Shown here one piece after another: positions 4,365 to 48,190 of a stretch of DNA of 64,000 nucleotides. Position 1 is the first letter of the stretch, and the number at the start of each line of letters is the position of its first letter. Source of the DNA: an uncultured Acetatifactor sp. Lineage in GTDB: Bacteria; Bacillota; Clostridia; Lachnospirales; Lachnospiraceae. A program made the translations under genes and the position numbers. The notes under the pieces were generated by a model, which searched no databases, was not told where the DNA came from, and worked only from the letters and a program-made list of their open reading frames with translations. The stretch lies in assembly GCA_947627115.1 (NCBI GenBank), contig CANQUQ010000003.1, forward strand, positions 114,710 to 178,709, in the 5' to 3' direction.

Positions 4365-6650
4365 ATGGCAGGAACTGCATTGAAAAAAGGGACGAAAATC
4401 TATAAGAACGGACAGCCTATGACCGCGCTGCACCTGATCACAGGCGGCGCCGTACAGGCAGAATATCCCGGAGGCACCTATCTGCTGAGGAAGGGCGACG
4501 TGATAGGCATCTGCGAGATCTGCTCGGAGATCCACTTCCTGGGCTACACCGCCGCCGAGGACACCGTCATTATGACTTATCCGGTCAACAATCTGGAGGT
4601 GCTGGACGACCTGCTTCAGAGGCATCCCGACGTGGCAAGGGTATTCATTCTGTCACTGTTCCGACAGATCAACACTCTTCTGGGACAGAGCGCGCTTTCG
4701 GAGATGAACTGCGCCGATCTGTATCAGAATCTGAAAGCAGACTATGAAAAATATCAGGCTCTCTGCAGCCGTCACCGCATTGCACCGAGGACTCTGGACG
4801 GAATACAGGACATCGCTTCCTACATCGTGGGCGAGGATCAGGATATTTGGCTGAACAGCTACTACCTGGGGCTTCAAAATGTCTACTCCAGAGAGTCCGC
4901 AAAGGCTATGACACAGGAGCCCGGCATTTCACTGGGCATGCTGCGCAAGGGGAGCCTCGATTTCCGCAAGACATACACTCTGCTGGATGAGCAGTACCAG
5001 TACTGCAGCCAGCTTCTGCAGTATTATTTCAATTCCGCCGGAAACGATCTGTTCGATTTTTATACCTCGCTCTACTATCGTCTCGGAGCAGATTCCGCAG
5101 ACGCCGCTTCCCTCCGCGCGGACATCGAGCGTATGATCCAATACCTTGAAGGGAATCCTGTGCTGGACGCCGCTCAGGTAAAACAGCGCGCGGAAGGATT
5201 CCGCAGCAAGCTCTCCGTCCCTTCCTCCGACAGGAGCGCCGAAGCAAAAAAGGACAATTCTCTCAACTCTGCCATTTTGTCCGAGCTGGCCGGCAGCCTG
5301 AACACGATCCTGGAATTTGCCGGGCCCAATTTTGAAAAGGCGGAATCGTTCCGGCAGCATGTGAACGCTTACAAGGGCATGGAGGACAGGAACGCCGTAG
5401 ACGATGTGAGCAGCCGTCTGCGCAGGAACCTGACCGCAGAATTTTACGAACTCTATTCGACCGTCTTCGAGCACTCCCTCTCAACGCCGTACATGCCCAT
5501 TCCGGTAAAAATGTTCCTGCATTTCGGATATGTGGACGAAGAGCTGGCAGGCGACGACAACTGTATGACTTTATATAATCTGATCTTCGGCATGGAGGAT
5601 CAGAGCGCTTTCGGTCTGTATACCTTCTACCAGTGGCTGATGGCTATATATAACGATCAGAAGACCCCCAGCCGCAACGAATTTGACGAGGATTATTCCG
5701 ACTATCTCCACAAGCAAAAGGCATCCGGCAAGCTCAGCGCCTCCCAGCTGAACGCTCTGGAGAATGATCCCATGAGCAAGGTGAATTATGAGCTTCAGAA
5801 TATGTTTCCCCAGGTCAACAAGATCACCTTTGGCCGAATCAGCATCTTCTGCCCTATTTTTACGGCAGACAACGTGCTGAAGGACCTGAAGGCTTCCTAT
5901 GTCAGCCTTTCACAGGTCAACAAGGCCATTGACACGATCAGAAGCGTCGATTTCTCAGCTTTTTACCGGGAGAGCCTGGACTATGACAACATGGAGCTGA
6001 TGGGCAAGCAGCCGATCCATGTGGAGTATCTGCCCGATATCATCCTGATGCCCAACGTGGGGATACGGGGCGTCATGTGGCAGGAGATCGAGGGAAAGAA
6101 GCGCAACAGCCCCGGAAGGATGTTCTTCTCCATATTTCATATGGAGGACATCAATACTTCCATGGTCCGACTGGCCGGAGAGTTCCGTTGGGAAATGTGC
6201 AAACGCATTCAGGGAGGCCGCTGGAACGATGTTTCGGAGCGTTCCCTCACCAGCGAATATTTCGACTATGTACAGTTCTACCGCAAAAATCACGACCTCA
6301 GCGCCGAGGCAAAGGAGCGCGTCCGCATCAGTCTTCAGAGGGCCAAGAACAGCTTCAAGGAGATGTTCGTCCGTGATTACATAATATGGGTATTGTTCGA
6401 GGGCAACAATTCGCCCCGGCTGAATAAGGTGGCCCGGAAAATTCTGTTCACCTACTGCCCCTTCCCTGAAAGGGTCATGGCAGGCATGTCCCAGAACCCT
6501 CTCTATTCCGAGCTTTTGGAGCGGCGCAAGATCCTGACCATGCAGCGCATCCGCCATCTGGAGATACTGGCACAGAAGATCAAAAACACCGGCGCCGACG
6601 TGCCCGACACTCTGCAAACGGAGATCCGCTTCGTGCAGGGAAAGATTTAA
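4365..6650 (+). CDS. Large protein with N-terminal cyclic-nucleotide-binding (Crp-like) fold and a long uncharacterised C-terminal region
   Basis: 761-aa ORF. N-terminus KKGTKIYKNGQPMTALHLITGGAVQAEYPGGTYLLRKGDVIGICEI resembles a cNMP-binding beta-roll. No HTH seen. Confidence 0.75.
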   Translation: MAGTALKKGTKIYKNGQPMTALHLITGGAVQAEYPGGTYLLRKGDVIGICEICSEIHFLGYTAAEDTVIMTYPVNNLEVLDDLLQRHPDVARVFILSLFRQINTLLGQSALSEMNCADLYQNLKADYEKYQALCSRHRIAPRTLDGIQDIASYIVGEDQDIWLNSYYLGLQNVYSRESAKAMTQEPGISLGMLRKGSLDFRKTYTLLDEQYQYCSQLLQYYFNSAGNDLFDFYTSLYYRLGADSADAASLRADIERMIQYLEGNPVLDAAQVKQRAEGFRSKLSVPSSDRSAEAKKDNSLNSAILSELAGSLNTILEFAGPNFEKAESFRQHVNAYKGMEDRNAVDDVSSRLRRNLTAEFYELYSTVFEHSLSTPYMPIPVKMFLHFGYVDEELAGDDNCMTLYNLIFGMEDQSAFGLYTFYQWLMAIYNDQKTPSRNEFDEDYSDYLHKQKASGKLSASQLNALENDPMSKVNYELQNMFPQVNKITFGRISIFCPIFTADNVLKDLKASYVSLSQVNKAIDTIRSVDFSAFYRESLDYDNMELMGKQPIHVEYLPDIILMPNVGIRGVMWQEIEGKKRNSPGRMFFSIFHMEDINTSMVRLAGEFRWEMCKRIQGGRWNDVSERSLTSEYFDYVQFYRKNHDLSAEAKERVRISLQRAKNSFKEMFVRDYIIWVLFEGNNSPRLNKVARKILFTYCPFPERVMAGMSQNPLYSELLERRKILTMQRIRHLEILAQKIKNTGADVPDTLQTEIRFVQGKI

Positions 6651-6687: not shown

Positions 6688-7053
6688 TTATATTACCGAA
6701 TAGCCGGCATGAAGGAGAGCATCGCAAGCCTTGTCGAAGCTCTCCTTCTTGACAAGAATGTAATCTGTGTTATATGTGGAGACCGCAAATATCCCTATCT
6801 GACGGTCCGCAAGCACCGCTGCGATCGGAGCCAGTATTCCGATCAGGGAAAAGTCCAGAACGCCTTGGATTCGGAAGGCTTTCCAGCCGTCTTCCCGTGC
6901 CTCTGTCCGCAGCGGCACATGCTCCGTCCTGCATACCAGCGAAAGTTCTTCATCGGTCTTTGCGATAAAGAAGAATTCGTCCGCCAGGATCTCCGGACAC
7001 AATTCCCTGACTTTGCATACCGACAGGTCATATGGCAGCTTTTTCAATTCCAT
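6688..7053 (-). CDS. ACT domain-containing protein
   Basis: 121 aa; ...FSLIGILAPIAAVLADRQIGIFAVSTYNTDYILVKKESFDKACDALLHAGYSV, typical of ACT_7/CASTOR-like proteins. Confidence 0.75.
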   Translation of the reverse strand: MELKKLPYDLSVCKVRELCPEILADEFFFIAKTDEELSLVCRTEHVPLRTEAREDGWKAFRIQGVLDFSLIGILAPIAAVLADRQIGIFAVSTYNTDYILVKKESFDKACDALLHAGYSVI

Positions 7054-7188
7054 TGCCTTTTCCTCCGAAATTTTTCATTTAATTCTAGTTACTGAGGGTA
7101 CTTAAAAATCTTAAAGCAACCACGCCCATCAAATACCTATTAAATCAGATAAAACTATAGCTGGCCCAGCAATTCAAAAATAAAAATT

Positions 7189-10100
7189 CTATGTATGTTC
7201 AATTTGAGGTCTTTTATGTAGAGTATTTTCATACCAAGAGCTTAATATATTTGAACGAAGTTTCTGCATCTTCTTTATTTCTCTTGAAGCATAGTAAATA
7301 TCTGTATCAAGGTAAGGCCACGGTAATATTGCAGCCTCCGTTTGTTGTTTTAGTATTAACGGATTTTCACTATTATCTTTAAGAAGTTTGGTATACTCAC
7401 CAAATATTGCCGGACAGTTCTTCTCCAATAAAGCAGGAATAGATGGATATACAATTTTGTTAATCATATCAGATGCCCAATACCCAGTTATTGATAAGTC
7501 AATCGGGTTTACATATATATGACTATGAAAATCAATGTCAATTATGCTCCCATGAATTGTACCAACTCCACCAATTCTTTTTATCAAATCTGCAACATGT
7601 TTTTGAAATGAAGTAAACTTGTCAAGTGGTGTTTTTATCATAGAAACCATAGCGTCCATATTATCATAATAGTACTGGACATCCTGATTTTCTAATTTTT
7701 TCATAGCGCCGCCGTTAAGAATAGTGAGACGACCACTTCTTGATTTGTGAATAAAACAGTAATACCCGTTCTTTTTTAACATATAGAGTACATTTACTTC
7801 TCGCTGGAAACTCATTGATATATTTTTCCCTCGGTAGAAGTCATTATATTGCTCACTCGTAATCTCAAATATGCCATCTTCATAATCAATAAAGCAATCA
7901 TAATCGTTATCAATCAAAAAAGCTTTCAAACGAGGCGTCTCACTATGATATCCAACTTGATTGTCCGAATAAATTCTATACTCACCATCATCATGAAAGA
8001 AATTCCTGTGTGTATGTCCACTTACATAGACATAATTTTTATCATAATCTGCTTCTTTGCACCAATCTTTTTTAGGTGTATGCGTTAAAATAATCGTGTT
8101 CTTATTATCCAGAATAGGGCGTAACCGCTTATACAAATCTTCAAAAATTTTAGATTCGTTTATTTCAGTAGTCCTGTCCACAGTCATTCGATAAATACCG
8201 TTATCGGCGTTAAACTCCATATTATATCCCGAAAAACCTAATCCACCAAAAATCACATATCTTACGTTTCGTAAGCGATCAGCAATTTGCGTTTCATTCA
8301 TTTGACACAAATCATGATATTTAATCAAGTGTATTCCTGCGTTTGAAGCGGCAAAAAACCCACAATCTTCTTTGTAAAGAAGATCGTTATGAAGTAAATA
8401 CATACCATATTCTTCTAAAATAGTTCGATACTTTGAAACAATCTGCTCTATTTGAAAGTCCGGAAAACTCCATAACTCATGATTTCCAAGTGTAAACACA
8501 ACCAGTGCGTTCCGATGTAATGTTTTAGAAAGCATCTTTACAAATAACTGAAATATTCTAATATCTGATGCTACATCGCCATCAATTAATAGTAGACTGC
8601 TTGCTTCATTAGCAATCGTATCAACTATTTTTTGAATCACATATATAATATCTTCTTTTGAACGACAACCTGCGTTTTGTATTCTGTGCATAAGATGAAG
8701 ATCCGAAATATAGTGAACTCTTTGGCATTTGCAATCCAATGACATATCAAAAGCTGATAAATCTTTTCTCTCAGCTTCTTCTGTTAAGTTTCTCGATGTT
8801 TGGAGAACTAAGGCTGTTTCATTTTCATTCCTTTCTACACAATCAAAAGATTTTATCAAATTTTCATTAATTACTTGTGTATCATATTTCAAACCAAACT
8901 TTTCACATAAAGAGCTTTTCATTTTAGAATTTGTAAAGTCAATATTATCCCACTCTTCTAAAAACATCAATCCATCGCAAAAAAGTAGATTGGCTTCAGA
9001 CAAATCTCCTTTCAAAAAAGCAACAAAATCAAAGAAATAAGCAAAGGAATGTTTGTATTCTTTTATCACACTACCAGATGTACTACACCACTGTTGTGTC
9101 ACATAGAATTTTTTGTCGTGATAGTATTTTTTTATCAAATAAGTAACCTCTATATCTGTACAAACCGGCAATTTCGTCGTTTCATCAATAACGTAATTAG
9201 AAAAATCCGCATCACATTCAAGTGCGCCTGATAAATCACAATATGTTAAATCTCCGTTTCTATAACTAATAAACTCATCAAAGGTTTCAAAATACCTATA
9301 AATTGTTGCTGTAATTGGGAAATATATATTATCCTCTTGATAGCCTTGAGTTTCTTCGCAATAGTAGTGTGTTTTTTTATCAAAAAAAGCTTTTGAACGA
9401 AATTTAATTTTTCCATCTTTCAAGCAGCATACATAATCTTTCAAGTTCCTCTTATGTTTATATATCGTACACTTTGCTCCAGATGAATAATTAAATGATT
9501 GTATAACATCATCAGGATTATATATTGAACATAATTCGTTTATCAATTTGCATCTCGGATAAGCGCCGGAAGACATATATTCCATAACAATAGAGAAGCG
9601 TTGTTTATCCTTGACATCTGTAAAAATGTACTGAAAAAAGAAAAAGCTAACATCTACAATGGAATAAATCTCAGATTTTTTATAATTTTCCACCACTTTT
9701 ACCAATTCATCATAACTACTACAATTATTAAATTTTTTAATCCACTGTTGACAACATTTATGAATTTGACTTCCTTCTTCATAATTATCTTTTTCTTCAT
9801 TCGATAATGCCAATGAATATTCATCTATTGTGTCTTCGACAAACGCTTTTTTTGCCATTAACTTTTTTGCGTCAATATTTTTAGAAATAGATATTCTCGA
9901 AAAAGGACAAAATGCATAGCAAGCATTATCATAAATATCTCCATTCAAAAAGTCAAAATAAGAATCAAAATTATCAAACGATTGATAAACGCTTCTTTTG
10001 TGTTCCACACCATCTGTGTCCACATAAATTAACGTTTCTTCAACAAAGAAAGAATTGGAAATAATATCAAATCCTCTTTTCCCTGTTATACGAAAACCTG

Positions 10101-10218
10101 CTTCTCGTTCAAAAGTCACAAGCTGAATATCATCCTTATATTCTTTTGGAACATCAAAAACCCTGATTTTTTTTCTCTTCAATTGTCTAATTATTTCTTT
10201 GACTTCTGACTTTACCAT
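7189..10218 (-). CDS. Calcineurin-like metallophosphoesterase with three N-terminal repeat modules
   Basis: 1009 aa. MPE motifs ISDLHLMH, LLIDGDVASD, FTLGNHELW, ILTHTPK, YVSGHTHRNF. N-terminal half repeats FxxFxxYxxGD[LI]xxAxL three times. Confidence 0.85.
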   Translation of the reverse strand: MVKSEVKEIIRQLKRKKIRVFDVPKEYKDDIQLVTFEREAGFRITGKRGFDIISNSFFVEETLIYVDTDGVEHKRSVYQSFDNFDSYFDFLNGDIYDNACYAFCPFSRISISKNIDAKKLMAKKAFVEDTIDEYSLALSNEEKDNYEEGSQIHKCCQQWIKKFNNCSSYDELVKVVENYKKSEIYSIVDVSFFFFQYIFTDVKDKQRFSIVMEYMSSGAYPRCKLINELCSIYNPDDVIQSFNYSSGAKCTIYKHKRNLKDYVCCLKDGKIKFRSKAFFDKKTHYYCEETQGYQEDNIYFPITATIYRYFETFDEFISYRNGDLTYCDLSGALECDADFSNYVIDETTKLPVCTDIEVTYLIKKYYHDKKFYVTQQWCSTSGSVIKEYKHSFAYFFDFVAFLKGDLSEANLLFCDGLMFLEEWDNIDFTNSKMKSSLCEKFGLKYDTQVINENLIKSFDCVERNENETALVLQTSRNLTEEAERKDLSAFDMSLDCKCQRVHYISDLHLMHRIQNAGCRSKEDIIYVIQKIVDTIANEASSLLLIDGDVASDIRIFQLFVKMLSKTLHRNALVVFTLGNHELWSFPDFQIEQIVSKYRTILEEYGMYLLHNDLLYKEDCGFFAASNAGIHLIKYHDLCQMNETQIADRLRNVRYVIFGGLGFSGYNMEFNADNGIYRMTVDRTTEINESKIFEDLYKRLRPILDNKNTIILTHTPKKDWCKEADYDKNYVYVSGHTHRNFFHDDGEYRIYSDNQVGYHSETPRLKAFLIDNDYDCFIDYEDGIFEITSEQYNDFYRGKNISMSFQREVNVLYMLKKNGYYCFIHKSRSGRLTILNGGAMKKLENQDVQYYYDNMDAMVSMIKTPLDKFTSFQKHVADLIKRIGGVGTIHGSIIDIDFHSHIYVNPIDLSITGYWASDMINKIVYPSIPALLEKNCPAIFGEYTKLLKDNSENPLILKQQTEAAILPWPYLDTDIYYASREIKKMQKLRSNILSSWYENTLHKRPQIEHT

Positions 10219-10332
10219 ATCATTTCCTCCAAATATCTTGATTTTTTCTGCTTAATCAATAATTTTTTATCAAATGCTGAAACAAGTCGGCAGTTTCTTT
10301 GTCTATTGCCGCAGACTATCCAATCTATCCAG

Positions 10333-10456
10333 CAATCATCACCATTACATCGTCAACGAAAATCTGGTTTTGCTTCTGCTCCGCCAGTATGTCCCACATG
10401 GCTTGAAACATAGCAACAGTCACAGCTTCTCTAGGCGGTTCTCTGTTCTCAATTTA
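10333..10456 (-). pseudogene. Remnant C-terminal coding fragment
   Basis: Minus frame reads IENREPPREAVTVAMFQAMWDILAEQKQNQIFVDDVMVMIAG*, a coherent protein-like tail with no start and a stop just upstream. Confidence 0.35.
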
Positions 10457-10543
10457 TTCTTTTTAACATATATAAACTATCCATGATTAAATATCAACTC
10501 AGTAATCTTTGAACAGTCCCACAATTCCGAAAAGGAACATTCT

Positions 10544-11029
10544 TTAATTTGATATACACTTTAAAATACTTTCTTTAACCCTGTAATCTCCTTGGGGGGA
10601 CAATAATATATACTGAAATCTCTCTTCTGCACTTATCCTCGTTATATTTCCGTATAAATCTTTTATTTTCCAGTGGTTACCTACACCAAATGTCAAATAA
10701 ATATTGTCAAAGTCAGAGGCGGTATAATCTTCCTGACGTCCAATGATTCTCCATTCTCCTTCCAGTTTTCTATCGAATAAACTATACGAATCTAAAACCA
10801 CTAACGGAATTAGCCTTACGGCTTTTTCTATATCATTTTCATTAATACACGGTTTGTCAGACATATAATCAAAAATTTCAGCCAAGTGTCCAAAGTCCAC
10901 TTTTGCAATTATTCTCCCAAAACAATATCTGTTTTCGTCCATCTTGAAACAAAATATATCTCCGTTTTTTATAAAACGTATCATGGTTCTTTCTTTTTTA
11001 TCCCAGCCCCATATCTTTAACTTTTGCAT
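10544..11029 (-). CDS. Imm26-like immunity protein
   Basis: IRFIKNGDIFCFKMDENRYCFGRIIAKVDFGHLAEIFDYMS resembles the Imm26 family start. True start may be the internal Met (MIRFIKNGD). Confidence 0.7.
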   Translation of the reverse strand: MQKLKIWGWDKKERTMIRFIKNGDIFCFKMDENRYCFGRIIAKVDFGHLAEIFDYMSDKPCINENDIEKAVRLIPLVVLDSYSLFDRKLEGEWRIIGRQEDYTASDFDNIYLTFGVGNHWKIKDLYGNITRISAEERFQYILLSPQGDYRVKESILKCISN

Positions 11030-11106
11030 GTACTTTCTCCTTTAAAAGTATCCTGTTTCTTCAATTCCATAAGCAATCCCCATTCTCTACTGTTTGAACA
11101 CTACCG

Positions 11107-11238
11107 TTAATGCTGCTCATTTTGCTCACTGTCCCATACCAACTCGAATTTAAATCCCGTTAAATTATTCTTTTCAACCAATACCGGAACTAGATTGTCA
11201 TATTTATCCAATTCAAACTTCAATTTCCATATTTTCAA
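11107..11238 (-). pseudogene. Internally deleted DUF1629/Imm11-like immunity gene remnant
   Basis: TTG-started frame after AGAGGAAA: (M)KIWKLKFELDKYDNLVPVLVEKNNLTGFKFELVWDSEQNEQH*. Looks like family N-terminus (KIWKL..D.YDNL.PV) joined to family C-terminus (..V.KNNLTGFKFE..W). Confidence 0.45.
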
Positions 11239-11345: not shown

Positions 11346-11699
11346 TCACTCCTCTGCCTTTTTATCCGGTTTTAGGATCAGCTCCTGCCACTGCCCCTGA
11401 TAATACAGCCCGCCGCAGCTGGCGCTGTTTTTCCTGTTTCCGATAATGTGATCCGGCATCAAAAATTCATATTTCCACCAGGTCGCAGTAGTTTTTCCCT
11501 CCATGATTAAAACCCTGTCCTCTCTGTAAGAGAGAACGCCGCACCCCGGAAGAGACGGACATAAACTTAATTTTTCACTTGCAAAATACAGGGCATTGTG
11601 ATCTGAGCGATATATTTCAAAATAAGCAAGCTCTACTTGCGTAAGTTCTTTTTCATTGCGTAACTCCTTTAAGAATTGTCCTATTTTCTCTAAGGACAA
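11346..11699 (-). pseudogene. Chimeric ORF: truncated XRE HTH N-terminus joined to an unrelated C-terminus
   Basis: MSLEKIGQFLKELRNEKELTQVELA is the start of an HTH_3 domain. It switches abruptly to YFEIYRSDHNALYFASEKLSLCPS..., with no remaining HTH helices. Confidence 0.5.
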
Positions 11700-11713: not shown

Positions 11714-12196
11714 TTAGGAATAAATCTCCCCTCCCTGGATATCCTGTCCCGTCTCGCCGCGCATCTTTCTGTCGAGAGGTTCCGGATCCTTTTCCAGCTG
11801 CAGCATTGTGTCAAAGGCGGAGAGCAGCAGTCTCTCCTGCCGATAGCGGTTCATGTCCTGGGGACGGTCCATGTACAGCTTGAAGTGGTCCACCTGCCAT
11901 ACCAGCGCGTCCGCCAGAGTATATCCCGCCACATTGTACTTATTTAAGAAGCTGCCGTAGTCATGGTAGTAGGCCAGCTCCTGCAAAAGTCCCCCAGAGT
12001 GCCGGATACCCTGCCACAGTTCTTCCGCGTACTCGCAGCTTACGCCCGCTCCTTCTGCGAGCTCCGCCACAAATCCGTGAAGCTCCTCCAGCGCCGCCTG
12101 CAGCGCGGCGTCCTGTTCTGCCTTCCTTGCTGTTTCCTGCTCTGCTTTCCCCGCTGTCTCCTGCGCAGGATTCGGAACATCCTTTCTCCCATTCAT
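11714..12196 (-). CDS. Conserved hypothetical protein
   Basis: ORF with likely start at MNGRKDVPN; body LADALVWQVDHFKLYMDRPQDMNRYRQERLLLSAFDTM. No function assigned. Confidence 0.6.
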   Translation of the reverse strand: MNGRKDVPNPAQETAGKAEQETARKAEQDAALQAALEELHGFVAELAEGAGVSCEYAEELWQGIRHSGGLLQELAYYHDYGSFLNKYNVAGYTLADALVWQVDHFKLYMDRPQDMNRYRQERLLLSAFDTMLQLEKDPEPLDRKMRGETGQDIQGGEIYS

Positions 12197-12249
12197 ATCG
12201 GAAATCCTCCGTCTCTCATGCCTTGCGGCAAATACAGTGACCGTGAAAC

Positions 12250-12296
12250 AAAAAGACCTTGAAAATGCTGCCGCACAGCTTTTCAAGGTCTTTTTT
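12250..12296. terminator. Strong bidirectional hairpin terminator
   Basis: aaaaagaccttgaaaatgctg-ccgca-cagcttttcaaggtctttttt; long stem with A-tract and T-tract flanks. Confidence 0.8.
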
Positions 12297-17119: not shown

Positions 17120-18769
17120 TCATTGCTCATGGTCGCCGTCATAATTCAGAAATTCGAAATCAAATTCATCCTCATCTTCCGTCATGAAATTCTTAGGTTG
17201 AGGCCTTGACTGGCTCTGTTCGTTTCTCTGACTCTGAGGCGTTCCCGCGGGCCTGTGTCCCTGAGATGCCCCTGCAGGACGCTGACCCTGAGGCGTTCCC
17301 GCCGGCCTGTGATCCTGAGGCGCTCCCGCAGGACGCTGGCCCTGAGGTGCCCCTGCCGGGCGCTGGCCCTGAGATGCTCCCGCTGGACGCTGACCCTGAG
17401 GCGCTCCCGCTGGGCGCTGGCCCTGAGGCGTCCCTGCCGGCCTATGACCCTGAGGCGCTCCCGCTGGACGCTGACCCTGACCTCCTGCCGGGCGCTGGCC
17501 CTGAGACGCTCCCGCAGGGCGCTGGCCCTGACCTCCTGCCGGGCGCTGGCCCTGAGACGCTCCTGCCGGGCGCTGGCCCTGACCTCCTGCCGGGCGTGGG
17601 CTCCCGCCTCTGCTGCCCGCTTCCCCGCTCTGCGCGTTTCTCTGATACTTCATCGCGTTCCTTCTGCGGATTGTCTCATTCTCCACCTGACTAAAATATG
17701 CGGAATCTTCCATGTCCCTGATCTTAAATATCAGATACGCCACGGCTCCGCCTGCCACTACCAGCAGAATGATCAGAATGATAATGGCGATCGTCTGGCT
17801 GCGCTTACTCTTTTCCAGCTCCTCCAGAGCTTGCTTGTTGCCCTGTATTGTCTCCAGAATATCATCTATCGTCCAGCTGTCGTTCGTCTCCGTTACGACG
17901 AGTCTCCACTGTCCGTCATATAATACCGTGTCATAGGGCTTTTCCTCCGCAGGTGCCGGCGTTTCCGGCTCAGCGTCATCCGACGGCTCCGGTTCGGGCT
18001 CCGGCTCCGTATACGGCGTGGGCTCCTCTGACAGCTCCGCATAATCGGAACGGATAAAGCCTGTGACCTCCGTGCCGTTGGAGATAAAGCTGACCTGCCA
18101 CCACAGCTTGCCGTCAGAACCGTTCACCTGTCCGATGACCGTCAGCGCCAATCCGCTCTGAACGGTCGTGAGGATCTGACTTGCCGCAGAGGTAGAAGGC
18201 ATGCTGCGGATCCTCACATTGTCGCTGCCCTTCACGATCGCGCTGACCGGATTGACCTTCGTCACACTGATCTCAGGCGTATCGGTGCCCGTGCCGGATT
18301 CCGGCTGCTGTGTGCTTGCCGCAGGCTGTTGTGTAGCAGTCGGCTCCTGCGTGGCGGCCGGTGGCTGCTGCGTGGCGGCCGGTGGCTGCTGTGTGGCGGC
18401 CGGTGCCTGTGAAGCGGCCGGCGGAGTCGAACCGTCGGTGATCTCCACCAGATCGGACCGGATATAGCCCAGCGTATTCGCATCCGCCCACACCTCATAC
18501 CAGGTATAACCGTCGCTGCCCTGGACCTGCCCCCGGATAGATATGACGGCGCCCTTCTCATAGCTTGTCACCGCGTTTCCGCCGGTGCTTGCGCTGCTCC
18601 GCACTATGGCGCCCCCCTGCGAGGTGACGCGCGCTGCGCTTTCTGCGCGGCTTACGAAGGAAAAGATTCCTGCAAACAGCCACAGTGAAAGTACCAGCGC
18701 CAACGTAAAGACCGTTGACAGGATGATCTGTCCTGACCTTAACTCATGTAACTCTCTCGTCTTTTTCAT
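17120..18769 (-). CDS. Membrane-anchored bacterial SH3-domain protein with GQRPAG-type repeat tail
   Basis: TM segment, two SH3b-like domains (GGAIVRSSAS...YTWYEVWA; DNVRIRSMPS...LWWQVSF), PPAATQQ repeats, second TM (TIAIIILIILLVVAGGAVAYLIF), (GQRPAGAPQ)n tail, acidic C-terminus. Confidence 0.85.
   Translation of the reverse strand: MKKTRELHELRSGQIILSTVFTLALVLSLWLFAGIFSFVSRAESAARVTSQGGAIVRSSASTGGNAVTSYEKGAVISIRGQVQGSDGYTWYEVWADANTLGYIRSDLVEITDGSTPPAASQAPAATQQPPAATQQPPAATQEPTATQQPAASTQQPESGTGTDTPEISVTKVNPVSAIVKGSDNVRIRSMPSTSAASQILTTVQSGLALTVIGQVNGSDGKLWWQVSFISNGTEVTGFIRSDYAELSEEPTPYTEPEPEPEPSDDAEPETPAPAEEKPYDTVLYDGQWRLVVTETNDSWTIDDILETIQGNKQALEELEKSKRSQTIAIIILIILLVVAGGAVAYLIFKIRDMEDSAYFSQVENETIRRRNAMKYQRNAQSGEAGSRGGSPRPAGGQGQRPAGASQGQRPAGGQGQRPAGASQGQRPAGGQGQRPAGAPQGHRPAGTPQGQRPAGAPQGQRPAGASQGQRPAGAPQGQRPAGAPQDHRPAGTPQGQRPAGASQGHRPAGTPQSQRNEQSQSRPQPKNFMTEDEDEFDFEFLNYDGDHEQ
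17206..17600 (-). repeat. Degenerate tandem repeat encoding (G/S)Q(G/D)(Q/H)RPAG(A/T/G)PQ units
   Basis: DNA repeat of ggcgctcccgcaggacgctggccctga-like units, read as QGQRPAGAPQ repeats in the SH3 protein. Confidence 0.9.
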
Positions 18770-41772: not shown

Positions 41773-43614
41773 TCACAGGGGCAGGCTCTCCGCCAGGCAG
41801 AGCCTGCCCCAGCCTACGCGCGCATTGGGGTAGACGCTCTCGCCACGCAATGGCTGCGCCCCTCTTCTCAGATACGCTTTCACCTTCTCCCCATACAGAA
41901 AAGGATCATTTCCCCGGACAATTCCCCATTCCATGAGCAGGGCCGCGCTTCCCGCGACAATAGGCGTCGCAAAGGAAGTCCCTGTGACGGGAAGGTAGCC
42001 CCCGTAAATATCCGGCGCCGCAATACCGACTCCGGGCGCCGCAAGATCCGGCTTCGCCAGACCGGACGTGACCGGTCCCAGCGTCCGCTGGGGGTCCGCG
42101 TATCCTCTTCCGGAGAAATCCGCATAAGCGTCATAGGTGCTGTCATAGGCGCCCACCGTGACGACCTTGGCGGCGGTAGAGGGGACAGTCAGGGTAGCCT
42201 CCGGCGTGGACAGAAAAAATCCGGTGCCGCTGTTGCGCACCGCGTTGGAGGGGAGGTAAAAATAATACTTTCCCGTGACCACCCGGACCGGCTCCAGCCG
42301 GAATGTCCACACACCGCCGTTGATATAGGGCCGGTCCGCGGGAAGCAGCTCCAGATATATCTCCTGCGCCGCCGAATAAGGCGCGGGCTCCCCGATAAAG
42401 ACCAGCACTTCCGTCTGCTCCAGACGCAGGGTGTACTTTCCGCTCTCCGTCTGCGGTGAGAGCTCCGCCTCCCGCCCTCCGGGCGAGCGCAGGAAGATCC
42501 GATATTCGTCGCTGTAGTTCTTCCAAAGCTGCACATTCAGATTTCTCTCATACTCCGCCACCGCCAGTTCTATCACTGCTGCCTGGGGCGTTGTCCCTTC
42601 TGACACATTACCTGACACACCACCTGACACTCTATCCGGCATGTCTGTCAGTCTGCCTGCCACATGTCCGCCGGCTGCCCCTTCGTTCCCGCTTCCCACG
42701 CAGATCACGGTCCGCCCTATCTCGGCCGCATTGTCCAGAAATCGCTCCAACAGCGAGCTTCCGTCGTGGGCGCCGTAACTGTTGCCGAAGCTTAAATTAA
42801 TCACCAGCGGCATCTGCAGCTCCAAAGACTTATTGACCGCATAAGTCAATCCCTGCATGATCTCTGTCGTCCTGGGAAAGGAGGATGCATCCGGCAGACC
42901 GAGCTTCACAATCAGCAGATCCGCAGACTGCGCCACTCCCCGGTAGCTTGTGCTGCTTCCCGCAGCAATTCCCGCCACGGCGGTGCCGTGTCCACTCACA
43001 TCCACGGTGGGCAGGAGCCTGAACTGTTCCTGTGGGCTGGTCTGCGAAAGCGCCAGATTGATCTTACGTGCGTCAAATTCCACTCCCTGGGCAAAGCCCT
43101 GGGGCGGTCGAAATTCCTCCTCGCTCCGGTCCGCCGCGCCGCCTCCGGCGGGCCTGAGCGTCTGGTCCCAGAGGTAGCGTATCCTGGTAGTCCCGTCCGC
43201 ATTCCGGAACTCCGGCAGTCTGTAATCGATCCCCGAATCCAGGACCGCCACAAGCACCCCTTTTCCCGTCAGAAAAGGATCCCGCCTCGTCACCTGCGGA
43301 ATGCAGGATTCCTCGGCGGGACCTGTCTCTTCATAAAAAAATCTCTTGGGCATTTCCACATATTCGATCTGCTCCAGCTCCGCCACCCGCTCTACCAGGC
43401 CTTCCGGCACCGTCAACAGCGCATAGCCCGCCAGCAGATACTCCACCGTCACGCCCAGCAGCTCCAGCTCGTCAAGGCTGCCGTGGTACTTTACGATCAG
43501 CTCCCAGGTGCGGCGTACCCCGTCAAAGCCCACATTCAGGTCTTCCGTCCGCTCTCTGTCCTCCTCCGATGTCTCCAGCGCAAGCTGCAGCAGGTCCTCA
43601 AGCTTCTGATTCAT
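41773..43614 (-). CDS. S8 subtilisin-like serine peptidase (Csp-like)
   Basis: Asp: VAVLDSGIDYRLPEF; His: DVSGHGTAVAGIAAGSS; Ser: VTGTSFATPIVAGSAALLMEW. No obvious signal peptide. Confidence 0.92.
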   Translation of the reverse strand: MNQKLEDLLQLALETSEEDRERTEDLNVGFDGVRRTWELIVKYHGSLDELELLGVTVEYLLAGYALLTVPEGLVERVAELEQIEYVEMPKRFFYEETGPAEESCIPQVTRRDPFLTGKGVLVAVLDSGIDYRLPEFRNADGTTRIRYLWDQTLRPAGGGAADRSEEEFRPPQGFAQGVEFDARKINLALSQTSPQEQFRLLPTVDVSGHGTAVAGIAAGSSTSYRGVAQSADLLIVKLGLPDASSFPRTTEIMQGLTYAVNKSLELQMPLVINLSFGNSYGAHDGSSLLERFLDNAAEIGRTVICVGSGNEGAAGGHVAGRLTDMPDRVSGGVSGNVSEGTTPQAAVIELAVAEYERNLNVQLWKNYSDEYRIFLRSPGGREAELSPQTESGKYTLRLEQTEVLVFIGEPAPYSAAQEIYLELLPADRPYINGGVWTFRLEPVRVVTGKYYFYLPSNAVRNSGTGFFLSTPEATLTVPSTAAKVVTVGAYDSTYDAYADFSGRGYADPQRTLGPVTSGLAKPDLAAPGVGIAAPDIYGGYLPVTGTSFATPIVAGSAALLMEWGIVRGNDPFLYGEKVKAYLRRGAQPLRGESVYPNARVGWGRLCLAESLPL

Positions 43615-43749
43615 ACAATTCTCTCTTTGACGCCTTTATTGATATTGTATGAGAAGAACTCGCCTTTCGGAATATTGATGATCATAAAATTATTTCCTGA
43701 AGCGGTCTAAGGTTTCTCATAGATAGACATAGAATCTCTATTTTTCTCA

Positions 43750-44355
43750 TTAGGGCTGTTCTTCAAAATGAAAACATGTAAACTCATTCTCTTTAATTAT
43801 GTCGTAAAATTTTTCAGACACATAAATCCCAGCCACACTCTTACTGCATCGAAAAATATCATATCCCAGGCAATTCTTCCTATCCACAAAAGTTTGTTTC
43901 GGTAGAAATGTATATAGGTCATATTTCTCATTATATTTATACTTACTTTTGACCAAATCAAAAGCATCAATAAAATTTTCTATATACATAACATAATAAT
44001 TGGTATTGACCTGTCCTGTTACGACATCACAAAGATAAATGCCATAAAATTGTATCCCCCCGATATTCTCTTTTTCCAAGATTCGCTTGACTCTCTCATG
44101 TATCACAGGCCATCTATGGACATTCAGCAGATAATCACTTTCTCTGTTAGATGCTTGGGAACTATAATAAAACATCACCTCAGGCCAGTCAATATTGTTG
44201 AGCTTTTGAAAAATTATATTATGAAAAGATCCTTTTTTAACACCAGGGTATTCGATTTCTTCTAAATTTGTTTCTTCGGCATAGATATAACTTTGCCCTT
44301 GTTCAACCAATTTATCGATACTATCCATATCATAAGTTAGTTTATAGAATTTCAA
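43750..44355 (-). CDS. DUF1629/Imm11-like immunity protein
   Basis: MKFYKLTYDMDSIDKLVEQ...GYDIFRCSKSVAGIYVSEKFYDIIKENEFTCFHFEE; family-like architecture. Confidence 0.55.
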   Translation of the reverse strand: MKFYKLTYDMDSIDKLVEQGQSYIYAEETNLEEIEYPGVKKGSFHNIIFQKLNNIDWPEVMFYYSSQASNRESDYLLNVHRWPVIHERVKRILEKENIGGIQFYGIYLCDVVTGQVNTNYYVMYIENFIDAFDLVKSKYKYNEKYDLYTFLPKQTFVDRKNCLGYDIFRCSKSVAGIYVSEKFYDIIKENEFTCFHFEEQP

Positions 44356-44358
44356 TTC

Positions 44359-45549
44359 TCACATCTCCAGACTCTGGACTCGCATCTCTCCATCCTGTAT
44401 GCCCCATATGATCAAGTGATTCCCCTGCCAGCCAAAATATATCTCATACCCTCCCTCCACTGGTAAGTCCCAGCCGGCATCCTGCAGGCTTAACAGCTCT
44501 TCTCTGTTCTCCCCATCCAATGTCTCCCTGCTGATCATGCCGCCTTCCCGCATCTGTACCAAATATATCCAGCCGTCACTGTAGCCTATGATTCTGGTCC
44601 CACTGTTTCTTTTCGTCTCATAAATGATACGGCTGGTGTCCGTTTCCGTATCGATCTCGAACAAGATATCATGTGTGAACGAAGGAAGCGCCTTTACAAA
44701 TATTCCAGGCGGCTTCTCATATACTTCCATTCGTCCGATCACTTTCTGACCCTCAACCGTTAAATCATTTTTAAATAAGTAAGACTCTTCATATTTTTTC
44801 CCCTGCAGACAATCAATGTCATGCCATTCATCGTCTGATTCCGTCGATTTTAAGTAGCTGAAATCAGGAAAGACCACCGTTCCTCCTGCCAGCCATGTCC
44901 CTCTCATCTCTGCTACAGCAGTTGTCCCACGCTTCGCTTTATCAGCTCCATTATCCCAATTATAAATCGTTTCATTGCTTTCCCCATCTACAACTGCCGG
45001 CGCACATTGACGGTTATTTGCATATACCTTCCACCCATTGAATTCAGACAGCCTAGCCAGACTGAAACTGTCTGTTTCACAATCACCGTCCACAGGGCAT
45101 GCATAAATCTCTCCATTTGTCCCATACAATAAATATCCGTCCTTCAAAGCAATGGATTCCGAGTTATTGCCGTTAAAGAACTGTGTCCAAAGAACACACT
45201 CCCTTGTCTGTCTGTCTATCCTCCACAACTTCCCGTCACAGCCTAACTTAAAAATATAATCTTCATCTGCTGCGATCGAAGCTCTCCAGCTAATATCGGG
45301 GTGCTCCTCTTCCTCCATTTCATATATATCCAGAACCTTCTGTTCGGAAACAGAATACACCCCGATCTGGTCCCGGTAGATTACATAATATTCATCTCCC
45401 TGATCCGCACTGTTCATTTCTTTTAGCATTCCACGGTAATAGTTATACTCATACGGCTCTTCCTTTTCACAGCCGCATAAAAGGCAGAGGGAAAGCAGGA
45501 GCATTGCCGATAATATATAGATTTTCTTATGGGCTTTCGTCCGCATCAT
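44359..45549 (-). CDS. Lipoprotein, paralog A of a tandem pair (beta-propeller-like)
   Basis: Lipobox LLLSLCLLCGCEKEEPYEYNYY; highly similar to 45622..46833. Confidence 0.85.
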   Translation of the reverse strand: MMRTKAHKKIYILSAMLLLSLCLLCGCEKEEPYEYNYYRGMLKEMNSADQGDEYYVIYRDQIGVYSVSEQKVLDIYEMEEEEHPDISWRASIAADEDYIFKLGCDGKLWRIDRQTRECVLWTQFFNGNNSESIALKDGYLLYGTNGEIYACPVDGDCETDSFSLARLSEFNGWKVYANNRQCAPAVVDGESNETIYNWDNGADKAKRGTTAVAEMRGTWLAGGTVVFPDFSYLKSTESDDEWHDIDCLQGKKYEESYLFKNDLTVEGQKVIGRMEVYEKPPGIFVKALPSFTHDILFEIDTETDTSRIIYETKRNSGTRIIGYSDGWIYLVQMREGGMISRETLDGENREELLSLQDAGWDLPVEGGYEIYFGWQGNHLIIWGIQDGEMRVQSLEM

Positions 45550-45621
45550 TATTTTCCTCTTATGTATTCTTCCATAACTTAATTGAAGAACGCTTCTGTA
45601 GTATACACCAAGTTAGATTTC

Positions 45622-46833
45622 TCACATCTCCAGACTCTCGACTCGCATCCCTTCATCCTGTTTGCCCCATATGATCAAGTGATTCCCTTGCCAGCCAAAA
45701 TATATATAATAATCCTCTTCCTTCCCTGACAATTTCCAGCCGGCATCCTGCAGGCTTAACAGATCCTCTCTGTTCTCCCCATCCAATGTCTCCCTGCTGA
45801 TCATGCCGCCTTCCCGCATCTGTGCCAAATATACCCAGCCGTCACTGTAGCCTATGATTCTGGTCCCACTGTTTCTTTTCGTCTCATAAATGATACGGCT
45901 GGTGTCCGTTTCCGTATCGATCTCGAACAAGATATCATGTGTGAACGAAGGAAAACTTCTTCCCGGACCGTCATTTACTTCCATTCGTCCGATCACTTTC
46001 TGACCCTCAACCGTTAAATCATTTTTATATAAGTAAGACTCATCATATTTTTTCCCCTGCAGACAATCAATGTCATGCCATTCATCGCCTGATTCCGTCG
46101 ATTTTAAGTAGCTGTAATCAGGAAATATCACCGTTCCTCCATCCAGCCATGTCCCCATCATCTCTGCTCCACGCTTCACTTTGGCAACCCCACTATCCCA
46201 AGTATAAATCGTTTCATTGCTTTCCCTATCTACAACTGCCGTCACACAGTTACGTGCATATACCTCCCACCCATTAAATTCTGCTTTCCGCCACTCCTTT
46301 ATCCGTTGCCGCACCCCTTTATAAATAACATCTTCAAACAGCCCCGCCAGACTGACTCTGTCTGTTTCACAATCACCGTCCACAGGGCATGCATAAATAT
46401 CTCCACCTGCTCCATACAATAAATATCCGTCCTTTAAAGCAATGCAGTGCGATAACTCAGAATCTCCTGCGATACAATGCGCCCAAAGAGTACATTCCCC
46501 TGTCTGCCTGTCTATCCTCCACAGTTCATTGGCAAACGATAAAAAATATATATAATTCTCATCTGCCACAATTGATATCATACCCTCCACATCTTCATTC
46601 GTTTCGTAAACGCCCGTTACTGTCTGTTCGGAGAGCGAATACTGCAAGATCCTGTTCCCTTCACTTATATAATACTCATCTCCCTGCTCCATACCGTTGA
46701 ATGTATCTCTTACTATCGAATGGTAATCGTAATAATCATACGGCTCTTCCTTTTCACAGCCGCATAACAGGCAAAGGGAAAGCAAGAGCATTGCCGATAA
46801 TATATAGATTTTCTTATGGGATTTCGTCAACAT
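45622..46833 (-). CDS. Lipoprotein, paralog B of a tandem pair (beta-propeller-like)
   Basis: Same signal peptide KKIYILSAMLLLSLCLLCGCEKEEPY and C-terminus ENREDLLSLQDAGW...YIYFGWQGNHLIIWGKQDEGMRVESLEM. Confidence 0.85.
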   Translation of the reverse strand: MLTKSHKKIYILSAMLLLSLCLLCGCEKEEPYDYYDYHSIVRDTFNGMEQGDEYYISEGNRILQYSLSEQTVTGVYETNEDVEGMISIVADENYIYFLSFANELWRIDRQTGECTLWAHCIAGDSELSHCIALKDGYLLYGAGGDIYACPVDGDCETDRVSLAGLFEDVIYKGVRQRIKEWRKAEFNGWEVYARNCVTAVVDRESNETIYTWDSGVAKVKRGAEMMGTWLDGGTVIFPDYSYLKSTESGDEWHDIDCLQGKKYDESYLYKNDLTVEGQKVIGRMEVNDGPGRSFPSFTHDILFEIDTETDTSRIIYETKRNSGTRIIGYSDGWVYLAQMREGGMISRETLDGENREDLLSLQDAGWKLSGKEEDYYIYFGWQGNHLIIWGKQDEGMRVESLEM

Positions 46834-47080
46834 CTTTACTCTCCTTCCTGTTGATTCCTATCATGCTAAAATGAAATGGTCCCTCCTTATAATCATCCAT
46901 AATATAATGTGCTCGCTTTTCCTTGCATAAATGAAACGCTTCTATACCAAATTCTTTTAGTGGACCGGCGTATTTATCATCTTGAAAAGCCAATGCCAAC
47001 AATCTCTGATTTAATATTGCAAGACAGGTCGATACTGTATTTTTAACATATTTGATAAACGAATCGATAACCTTATTGCC
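46814..47080 (-). pseudogene. 3' fragment of a decayed gene
   Basis: Frame open upstream of the ATG at 47002 (SNKGNKVIDSFIKYVKNTVSTCLAILNQRLLALAFQDDKYAGPLKEFGIEAFHLCKEKRAHYIMDDYKEG...) with no ATG start. Abuts a second gene fragment. Confidence 0.45.
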
Positions 47081-47093
47081 TTTATTACTGGGT

Positions 47094-47136
47094 TGTCAGT
47101 ATTTTTTCTATCATAGATTCCAGATCCGAAAATTCT
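47094..47136 (-). pseudogene. 3'-end fragment homologous to the gene end at 49489-49565
   Basis: tcagtattttttctatcatagattccagatccgaaaattcttcactgactgtccctg vs tcagtactttttctaccatagattccagattgggaaattcttcacagactgtccctg. Homology may extend to about 47152, into the 3' end of the 47137 ORF. Confidence 0.55.
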
Positions 47137-47652
47137 TCACTGACTGTCCCTGCCTTGTCTTTTTCTTTCCTCAGCATTTCTCATAAATTTCATGAATAGA
47201 TCCTCTGCTTCTTTTGAAATTCCGCTTTTTTCCTTAAGCATTCGAATTATTTCTTTCAGCATGTCTCCGAAATTTTCAAACTCATCATTTACTTTTCCTT
47301 CAAACCACCGTATAAAATTTCCATTTTCTTTTGAAAAACAAAGTAGTTCTCCGTCCCCGATCAACCAGCCGATGATAACTAACTCTGACGGAACAATTTC
47401 CGAAAATCGTGGAAAATAAAAACCGGCCAAATTCTGTCTTATTTGACAATCAGCCGAAAACCTTAACCATTCTTTGTAAGACTCAGGTATCCTTATTTCA
47501 TTGTTTTCTTCCCATTGTGTCATTTCTTCTTCAGATGCACCTTGACTAAAGAACGATGCCTTTTCACCATATTCAGGCACAGCTTTCTCACATAAGTTTA
47601 CAATTTCTTCAATTTCCCTTTTTAAACTATTGTTTTCCGGTACTTTTCTCAT
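47137..47652 (-). CDS. SMI1/KNR4 (SUKH) family immunity protein
   Basis: MTQWEENNEIRIPESYKEWLRFSADCQI...FPRFSEIVPSELVIIGWLIGDGELLCFSKENGNFIRWFEGKVNDEFENFGDML. Confidence 0.82.
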   Translation of the reverse strand: MRKVPENNSLKREIEEIVNLCEKAVPEYGEKASFFSQGASEEEMTQWEENNEIRIPESYKEWLRFSADCQIRQNLAGFYFPRFSEIVPSELVIIGWLIGDGELLCFSKENGNFIRWFEGKVNDEFENFGDMLKEIIRMLKEKSGISKEAEDLFMKFMRNAEERKRQGRDSQ

Positions 47653-47773
47653 TTTGTATTTTCCCTTCTATTTTCTTAATTCACTGCACTATGGGTCTTC
47701 CGGCTTCCTTTTCACAATCATCCGTATCCATATTAATATTCAGACAGCATGGTTTGAAATTTAAGAAAAAATG

Positions 47774-48190
47774 TTACATAGGTTTAATTTTCATGCTGGC
47801 ATTCTTTTCTTTCGCTTTCTCTAATGCATGAAAAAACACAGTTAAAAAATCATTGCCATCACTTGTCACAAAATAATTAGATAAATCTGTAATGTCTTCA
47901 CTAATATCATTTCCCCATGGCGGCTGTTTGGATAAATCCTCTATATCCCATACTACTTTTTGGGGGCTGAGCACTTGCAGTTCCTTTTTAATTACACTCA
48001 ATTCCTCTAAGGCATTATCTATATCCTTAGGGCCTATTTCCCCCTGATATAACTCGTTCATAATGATTGGAAAACGACTTCCCCAGTTTTCGTTCTCTAA
48101 ATTAAATGCTACTGTTGAAAAAAAGGAGTGCAAAAAATCAGCACTTCCTATTTCATACCAACAAAACTTTACTTTAAATCCAACTGCCAT
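47774..48190 (-). CDS. Imm70-like immunity protein
   Basis: MAVGFKVKFCWYEIGSADFLHSFFSTVAFNLENENWGSRFPIIMNELYQGEI...; start reset to MAVGF. Confidence 0.7.
   Translation of the reverse strand: MAVGFKVKFCWYEIGSADFLHSFFSTVAFNLENENWGSRFPIIMNELYQGEIGPKDIDNALEELSVIKKELQVLSPQKVVWDIEDLSKQPPWGNDISEDITDLSNYFVTSDGNDFLTVFFHALEKAKEKNASMKIKPM

Follow-up and report, generated by a model that had tools for sequence, protein, structure and literature searches.

The gene for a 1009-aa metallophosphoesterase (MPE) protein in the window, which is the whole 64,000-nucleotide stretch of DNA from a gut bacterium analysed here, is best explained, judging from sequence comparison, as horizontally acquired cargo left by a decayed integrative and mobilizable element. 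Its product may be a horizontally spread, stand-alone phosphodiesterase or nuclease effector, most likely directed against phages or plasmids, a reading to which we assign a probability of about 0.5. The anatomy of the gene and its mobility are well supported; we infer the nuclease activity, the triggering through the N-terminal region and the role in defence. The coordinates of all features are collected in Table 1.

Table 1. Features of the MPE gene and its surroundings (window positions; aa numbers refer to the 1009-aa protein)
Feature	Position	Strand	Basis
MPE gene, 1009 aa: N-terminal repeats, helical domain, MPE and C-terminal domain (CTD)	7189..10218	-	ORF list, Pfam, dN/dS
Module 1, aa 43-91, predicted EEE-H	9946..10092	-	AlphaFold2 model, profile-profile comparison, shuffle test
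Predicted all-helical domain, aa 140-267, pLDDT mostly 71-91	9418..9801	-	AlphaFold2 model
Module 2, aa 271-319, predicted EEE-H	9262..9408	-	AlphaFold2 model, profile-profile comparison
Module 3, aa 358-401, predicted EEE-H	9016..9147	-	AlphaFold2 model, profile-profile comparison
Calcineurin-like MPE catalytic domain, aa 498-751, full metal-ligand set	7966..8727	-	Pfam, AlphaFold2 model, homolog alignment
Conserved CTD, aa 752-1000, signature G-x-[IV]-H-G-x-I-[IV]-D-...-H-...-P	7219..7965	-	Homolog alignments, AlphaFold2 model
xre/HTH remnant, 3' end, of mobilizable element	10219..10462	-	Match to aa 193-260 of 271-aa Xre; blastn
Orphan Imm26 immunity-like gene, low GC, within AT-rich island	10544..11029	-	Pfam, E 1.4e-13
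Decayed HTH fragment, island edge	11346..11699	-	Weak HTH matches
ACT-domain gene, chromosomal-side flank	6688..7053	-	Pfam/profile scan
761-aa chromosomal gene, one side of relatives' near-empty site	4365..6650	+	Relatives' locus comparison
190-aa chromosomal gene, other side of relatives' near-empty site	11714..12286	-	Relatives' locus comparison

The gene is a single intact frame, as the first-pass annotation of this DNA had proposed without naming the strand; it runs from 10218 to 7189, is preceded by a good Shine-Dalgarno sequence and is present in a single copy in its genome. Scans for promoters and terminators gave results no better than shuffles. The gene had been described as AT-richer than its neighbours, and its GC content of 0.31 and GC3 of 0.25, compared with a GC3 of 0.60-0.74 in the flanking chromosomal genes, bear this out; it lies in an AT-rich island of approximately 7.1-11.6 kb with a GC content of 0.27-0.44, compared with 0.50-0.60 outside. 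The dN/dS ratio between the window gene and its close homologs is around 0.19 (0.15-0.21 in each domain), which shows purifying selection on the MPE protein and indicates that it is under selection across the family.

The catalytic domain matches PF00149 over aa 500-738 (E 2.9e-9, 38.1 bits against a gathering score of 21.5), the sole Pfam domain found in the window protein. The eight metal ligands D506, H508, D548, N579, H580, H713, H735 and H737 (motifs DxH, GD, GNHE, H and GHTH) are invariant in the aligned MPE homologs, one of which (L051; homologous loci carry L numbers throughout) is N-terminally truncated, and the full motif set reported earlier for the C-terminal half is thereby confirmed. 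The MPE superfamily also includes the SbcD/Mre11 nucleases, and Mre11 chains are among the top, albeit weak (E 0.04), Foldseek matches of the window protein. Nevertheless, the flanking domains are wholly different, the TIGR00619 score of 15.6 bits lies below the curated cut-off of 77.65, and no gene for an SbcC/Rad50 ATPase partner was found beside the window copy.

The most conserved part of the protein, overlooked in the first-pass annotation, is a CTD of around 250 aa. In the homolog alignment the conserved core comprises the MPE domain and these C-terminal residues, and the N-terminal 480 residues are variable. The D-G, K, H-G, D, H and P positions of the CTD are invariant across all aligned members, including the MPE-less L052. 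Modelled separately with AlphaFold2, the CTD gave a reasonable model (pLDDT 79, pTM 0.72), for which Foldseek returned no match at E <= 1e-3 in PDB or BFVD; the domain matched no Pfam family either. A profile search of PDB returned PARP-1 chains alone (E 0.03-0.12), which were taken as chance matches.

A threefold repeat had been proposed for the N-terminal half, and profile-profile comparison substantiates it: modules 2 and 3 match with a probability of 94% (E 1.8e-7), modules 1 and 3 with 51% (E 1.5e-4) and modules 1 and 2 with 42% (E 2.6e-4); in 18 of 18 control pairs of segments the probability was below 1% and E at least 0.05. The weaker, single-sequence shuffle test mostly agrees, the observed score being reached by 0 of 2000 shuffles for modules 1-2, 82 of 2000 for 1-3 and 10 of 2000 for 2-3. 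AlphaFold2 predicts the same order of three strands and a helix (EEE-H) in module 1 (strands 43-51, 56-66 and 72-81, helix 84-91), module 2 (271-280, 285-294 and 301-310, helix 313-319) and module 3 (358-367, 370-379 and 384-392, helix 395-401), so the repeats resemble one another in predicted structure. Since the confidence is modest (pLDDT around 50-80 in the modules and below 50 in the linkers), the match represents an agreement of predicted secondary structure rather than a solved fold. Each module passes from its helix into a short pentapeptide-like stretch (GDLSEANLLF and similar), as seen by eye. The module profile found no match in PDB at E <= 10, and a WGR- or AP2-like DNA-binding fold, considered from the order of strands and helix, was backed by no search. 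Of the sensing or binding array suggested previously, the array of alike predicted modules stands, and sensing is the part that we infer.

Comparison of the family indicates that the parts of the protein are exchanged. In L052, L059 and L070 the CTD is kept and the MPE domain is replaced by one with GD-x-DYLT, D-x-K and Q motifs, which on inspection of these motifs reads as a putative PD-(D/E)XK nuclease; a Pfam scan of L052 and L059 gave no match. L059 is the Limosilactobacillus reuteri plasmid pAN417A and L070 a viral contig, and the N-terminal part of such proteins also stands alone, as a protein of around 250 aa, on many plasmids. Within the MPE branch the N-terminus is sometimes formed by DUF4116 repeats (nine in L033, three in L054), members of the L054/L069 type show one module-like stretch in the alignment, and L043 carries a NUMOD-like tail that scores under the Pfam cut-off. 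NUMOD domains are associated with homing endonucleases. Between close relatives the N-terminal half is often far more divergent than the C-terminal half: L027 is identical to the window protein at 67% of residues in the former and 86% in the latter, with dS of 1.2-1.4 and 0.36-0.44, respectively. This gap points to recombination between the halves, the N-terminal one having a recombination history unlike that of the C-terminal one. The N-terminus is interchangeable. In L031 the MPE and CTD half alone is in frame (7968-9632), and in L032 the homolog is split into several frames (8001-11028).

The homologs are distributed patchily, in 15 of 299 sampled genomes of the family and 7 of 391 of the class, and their GC content is low in any host (0.25-0.44, mostly around 0.32), even where that of the host is around 0.6. 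No conserved housekeeping neighbourhood accompanies them. The MPE cargo of L024 (3838-7109) and L025 (99-3379) shares 97.2% nucleotide identity over 3.3 kb, and the two records are named as different genera, a rabbit-gut Eisenbergiella MAG and Blautia luti, which is evidence for a recent cross-genus transfer. The loci of relatives share the layout of integrative and mobilizable elements (reviewed in PMC5704250), consisting of a relaxase-like gene, xre, a cargo slot and a large serine recombinase, with common flanks around variable cargo; the recombinase was identified by Pfam/PHROG and the relaxase was recognised by its sequence alone. The MPE gene directly follows a gene for a 271-aa Xre-type protein in L024, L026 and L029, and homologous sequence is retained upstream in L021, L027 and L028. 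The downstream HTH gene and serine recombinase are present in L026 and L029, and likewise in L025. In L028 the unit of xre remnant and MPE gene lies between two copies of tRNA-Leu(caa), each together with its upstream region and nearly identical to the other (6993-7170 and 10965-11143). This duplication may be a scar of integration or may stem from the assembly.

Other genes fill the slot in MPE-less elements in which both flanks match (L096, L108, L109, L111 and L112), namely genes for ANT(9) (above the curated cut-off), a Mef(A)-like efflux protein, methyltransferases and a hydrolase; L110 and a second element of L111, in which the left flank matches, contain AAC(2')-IIb-like and class C beta-lactamase-like genes. 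One of these, L096 (contig C5, 7245-10990), belongs to the window's own genome, and this sister element has ANT(9) in its slot, together with genes for a phosphorylase-like and a small kinase-like protein. The slot is thus a general cargo slot rich in antibiotic-resistance genes, so that being cargo need not by itself mean defence.

At the window locus just the xre remnant and the cargo are left of such an element. The gene had been said to stand alone, which needs qualification: the approximately 200 bp directly upstream are a remnant of xre with three stops (two TAG and one TAA), and xre abuts intact homologs elsewhere. Neither a recombinase nor the right flank of the element was found in the window locus. 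Genus relatives have the two island-flanking genes 13 bp (G681) or 304 bp (G683) apart, compared with 5.1 kb in the window. Integration at tRNA-Trp was considered and rejected, as the 3' end of the tRNA is not duplicated at the island. Horizontal acquisition, suggested from the start, is upheld by the patchy distribution, the transfer between L024 and L025, the mobile cargo slot and the near-empty sites in relatives. The orphan immunity gene noticed previously is an Imm26 gene; no toxin partner for it was found in the island, and Imm26 was absent from all other fetched loci.

The search for defence genes around the homologs, proposed with the earlier suggestion of a defence function, found them beside several distant homologs, at around 6 of around 30 loci by raw count (the PADLOC tally covers 139 neighbours, also as raw counts). 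In L043 Wadjet jetA, jetC and jetD lie upstream of the MPE gene, with jetD adjacent, and a dynamin-family gene lies downstream. PDC-M33A and B, and by the PADLOC tally PDC-M33C, are directly upstream in L048, and an AbiL-like AAA and RloB pair lies 360 bp downstream in L022. A type II restriction endonuclease match is found two genes away in L044, with a Macro gene also near, an Eco57I-type gene at 4.7 kb in L059, and a Cas9 C-terminal-like ORF (4813-5982; PADLOC Cas9, E 2e-19) just upstream in L033, from Ruminococcus flavefaciens. Other homologs adjoin metabolic genes. Hence the defence neighbourhoods of distant homologs are suggestive. No defence gene was found beside the MPE gene at the window's own locus, and the window protein matched none of the PADLOC 2023 models at E <= 1. 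Some family members lie on viral or proviral contigs: a viral search with the CTD profile gave four relatives, and no match was obtained with the whole protein in the viral search or with the window protein in the INPHARED phage collection. The defence role is made plausible by the neighbours of distant homologs and by the nuclease-like domain that takes the place of MPE in some members, whereas the slot of close relatives is mainly one for antibiotic resistance.

Metallophosphatase domains occur in the defence systems DS-8 (metallophosphatase-NACHT) and DS-9 (metallophosphatase and HAD), which need their catalytic residues to protect against phages (PMC13092281); the window protein is likened to them by catalytic superfamily alone. 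DS-8 is a single-gene system with a NACHT domain and resembles SMPDL3A (PMC13092281). Unlike DS-8, the window protein has repeat modules and the CTD, and no NACHT domain was found in it by the Pfam scan.

We propose that the MPE gene product would act as an effector by itself, through three functional regions. Recognition would be the task of the variable N-terminal region, composed of three EEE-H modules around a helical domain here and of DUF4116 repeats elsewhere, which would sense an invader-linked signal, and the CTD would couple sensing to catalysis or position the substrate. The central MPE domain would be a two-metal phosphodiesterase, probably a nuclease, cutting phosphodiester bonds, most likely in nucleic acid; two features point to this substrate, namely the NUMOD-like tail and the PD-(D/E)XK-type nuclease that stands in for MPE in relatives. 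Cleavage of nucleic acid upon sensing of an invader may protect the host or the mobile element against phages or other incoming DNA. Carriage by mobile elements and the occasional anti-virus neighbours suggest that this is probably an uncharacterised bacterial immune protein. More tentatively, with odds somewhat below even, it may represent an undescribed single-gene immune family built on the CTD, in which MPE and PD-(D/E)XK-type domains, as well as EEE-H modules and DUF4116 repeats, are interchangeable, and which has spread via mobilizable elements, plasmids and phages through Clostridia and beyond. The novelty is at the family level and moderate, as a known catalytic superfamily is joined to an undescribed, partner-swapping domain. 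If the defence reading is true, the CTD is the hallmark of a modular family of immune proteins that escaped the 2023 defence library, two unrelated hydrolases serve one conserved domain, and both the CTD and the trigger are directly testable. What remains if it is false is an undescribed domain family, which also clearly exemplifies a single gene moving as cargo through a slot that in gut Clostridia otherwise serves antibiotic resistance.

Other functions of the cargo were weighed against this anti-phage or anti-plasmid reading. The nuclease could serve the element rather than general host defence, competing at the target, inhibiting superinfection or processing DNA for mobility, as its occurrence in mobilizable elements, a plasmid and phage-like contigs and the NUMOD-like tail of L043, typical of homing endonucleases, would suggest. 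We consider this unlikely, as the element backbone is present without MPE in other genomes, so that MPE is unneeded for mobility, and the MPE gene is intact though the window's element has decayed. Resistance or detoxification cargo, with MPE hydrolysing an antibiotic, a modified nucleotide or another small phosphoester, would suit a slot filled in MPE-less elements by ANT(9), Mef(A)-like efflux and an AAC(2')-IIb-like acetyltransferase. However, relatives exchange the catalytic domain for a PD-(D/E)XK-type nuclease, several distant homologs lie in proviruses or by defence systems, and we know of no resistance enzyme that resembles this protein of 1009 aa, with its several domains, repeats and CTD, which makes this function distinctly unlikely.

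A toxin to which Imm26 or the Xre protein would be the antidote is very unlikely, although Imm26 lies in the same island and an intact xre directly adjoins the start of the MPE gene in L026 and L029. Imm26 is near no other homolog, so that the conserved adjacent immunity gene of polymorphic toxins is lacking and the Imm26 pair was rejected; likewise, xre is a backbone gene that is found without MPE and carries other cargo elsewhere and is decayed in the window, which led us to reject an obligate two-gene system of Xre and MPE. No secretion or delivery domain was found. Equally improbable is counter-defence, in which MPE would degrade a nucleotide immune signal. Phosphoesterases of some phages are reported to aid the evasion of immunity, MPE-family enzymes act both in immunity and in counter-immunity (PMC12287305, PMC13092281), and some members of the family lie on viral contigs; nevertheless, such a function would be lost once a PD-(D/E)XK-type nuclease took the place of MPE, and several copies adjoin defence genes on chromosomes.

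Two other parts of the window deserve mention. Positions 43000-48000 form a second AT-rich stretch, with a GC content of 0.34-0.49 against a background of 0.55 and a strong negative GC skew, and positions 17120-18769 encode an SH3-like membrane protein of 549 aa that has a long tail of Gln/Pro/Ala/Gly repeats.
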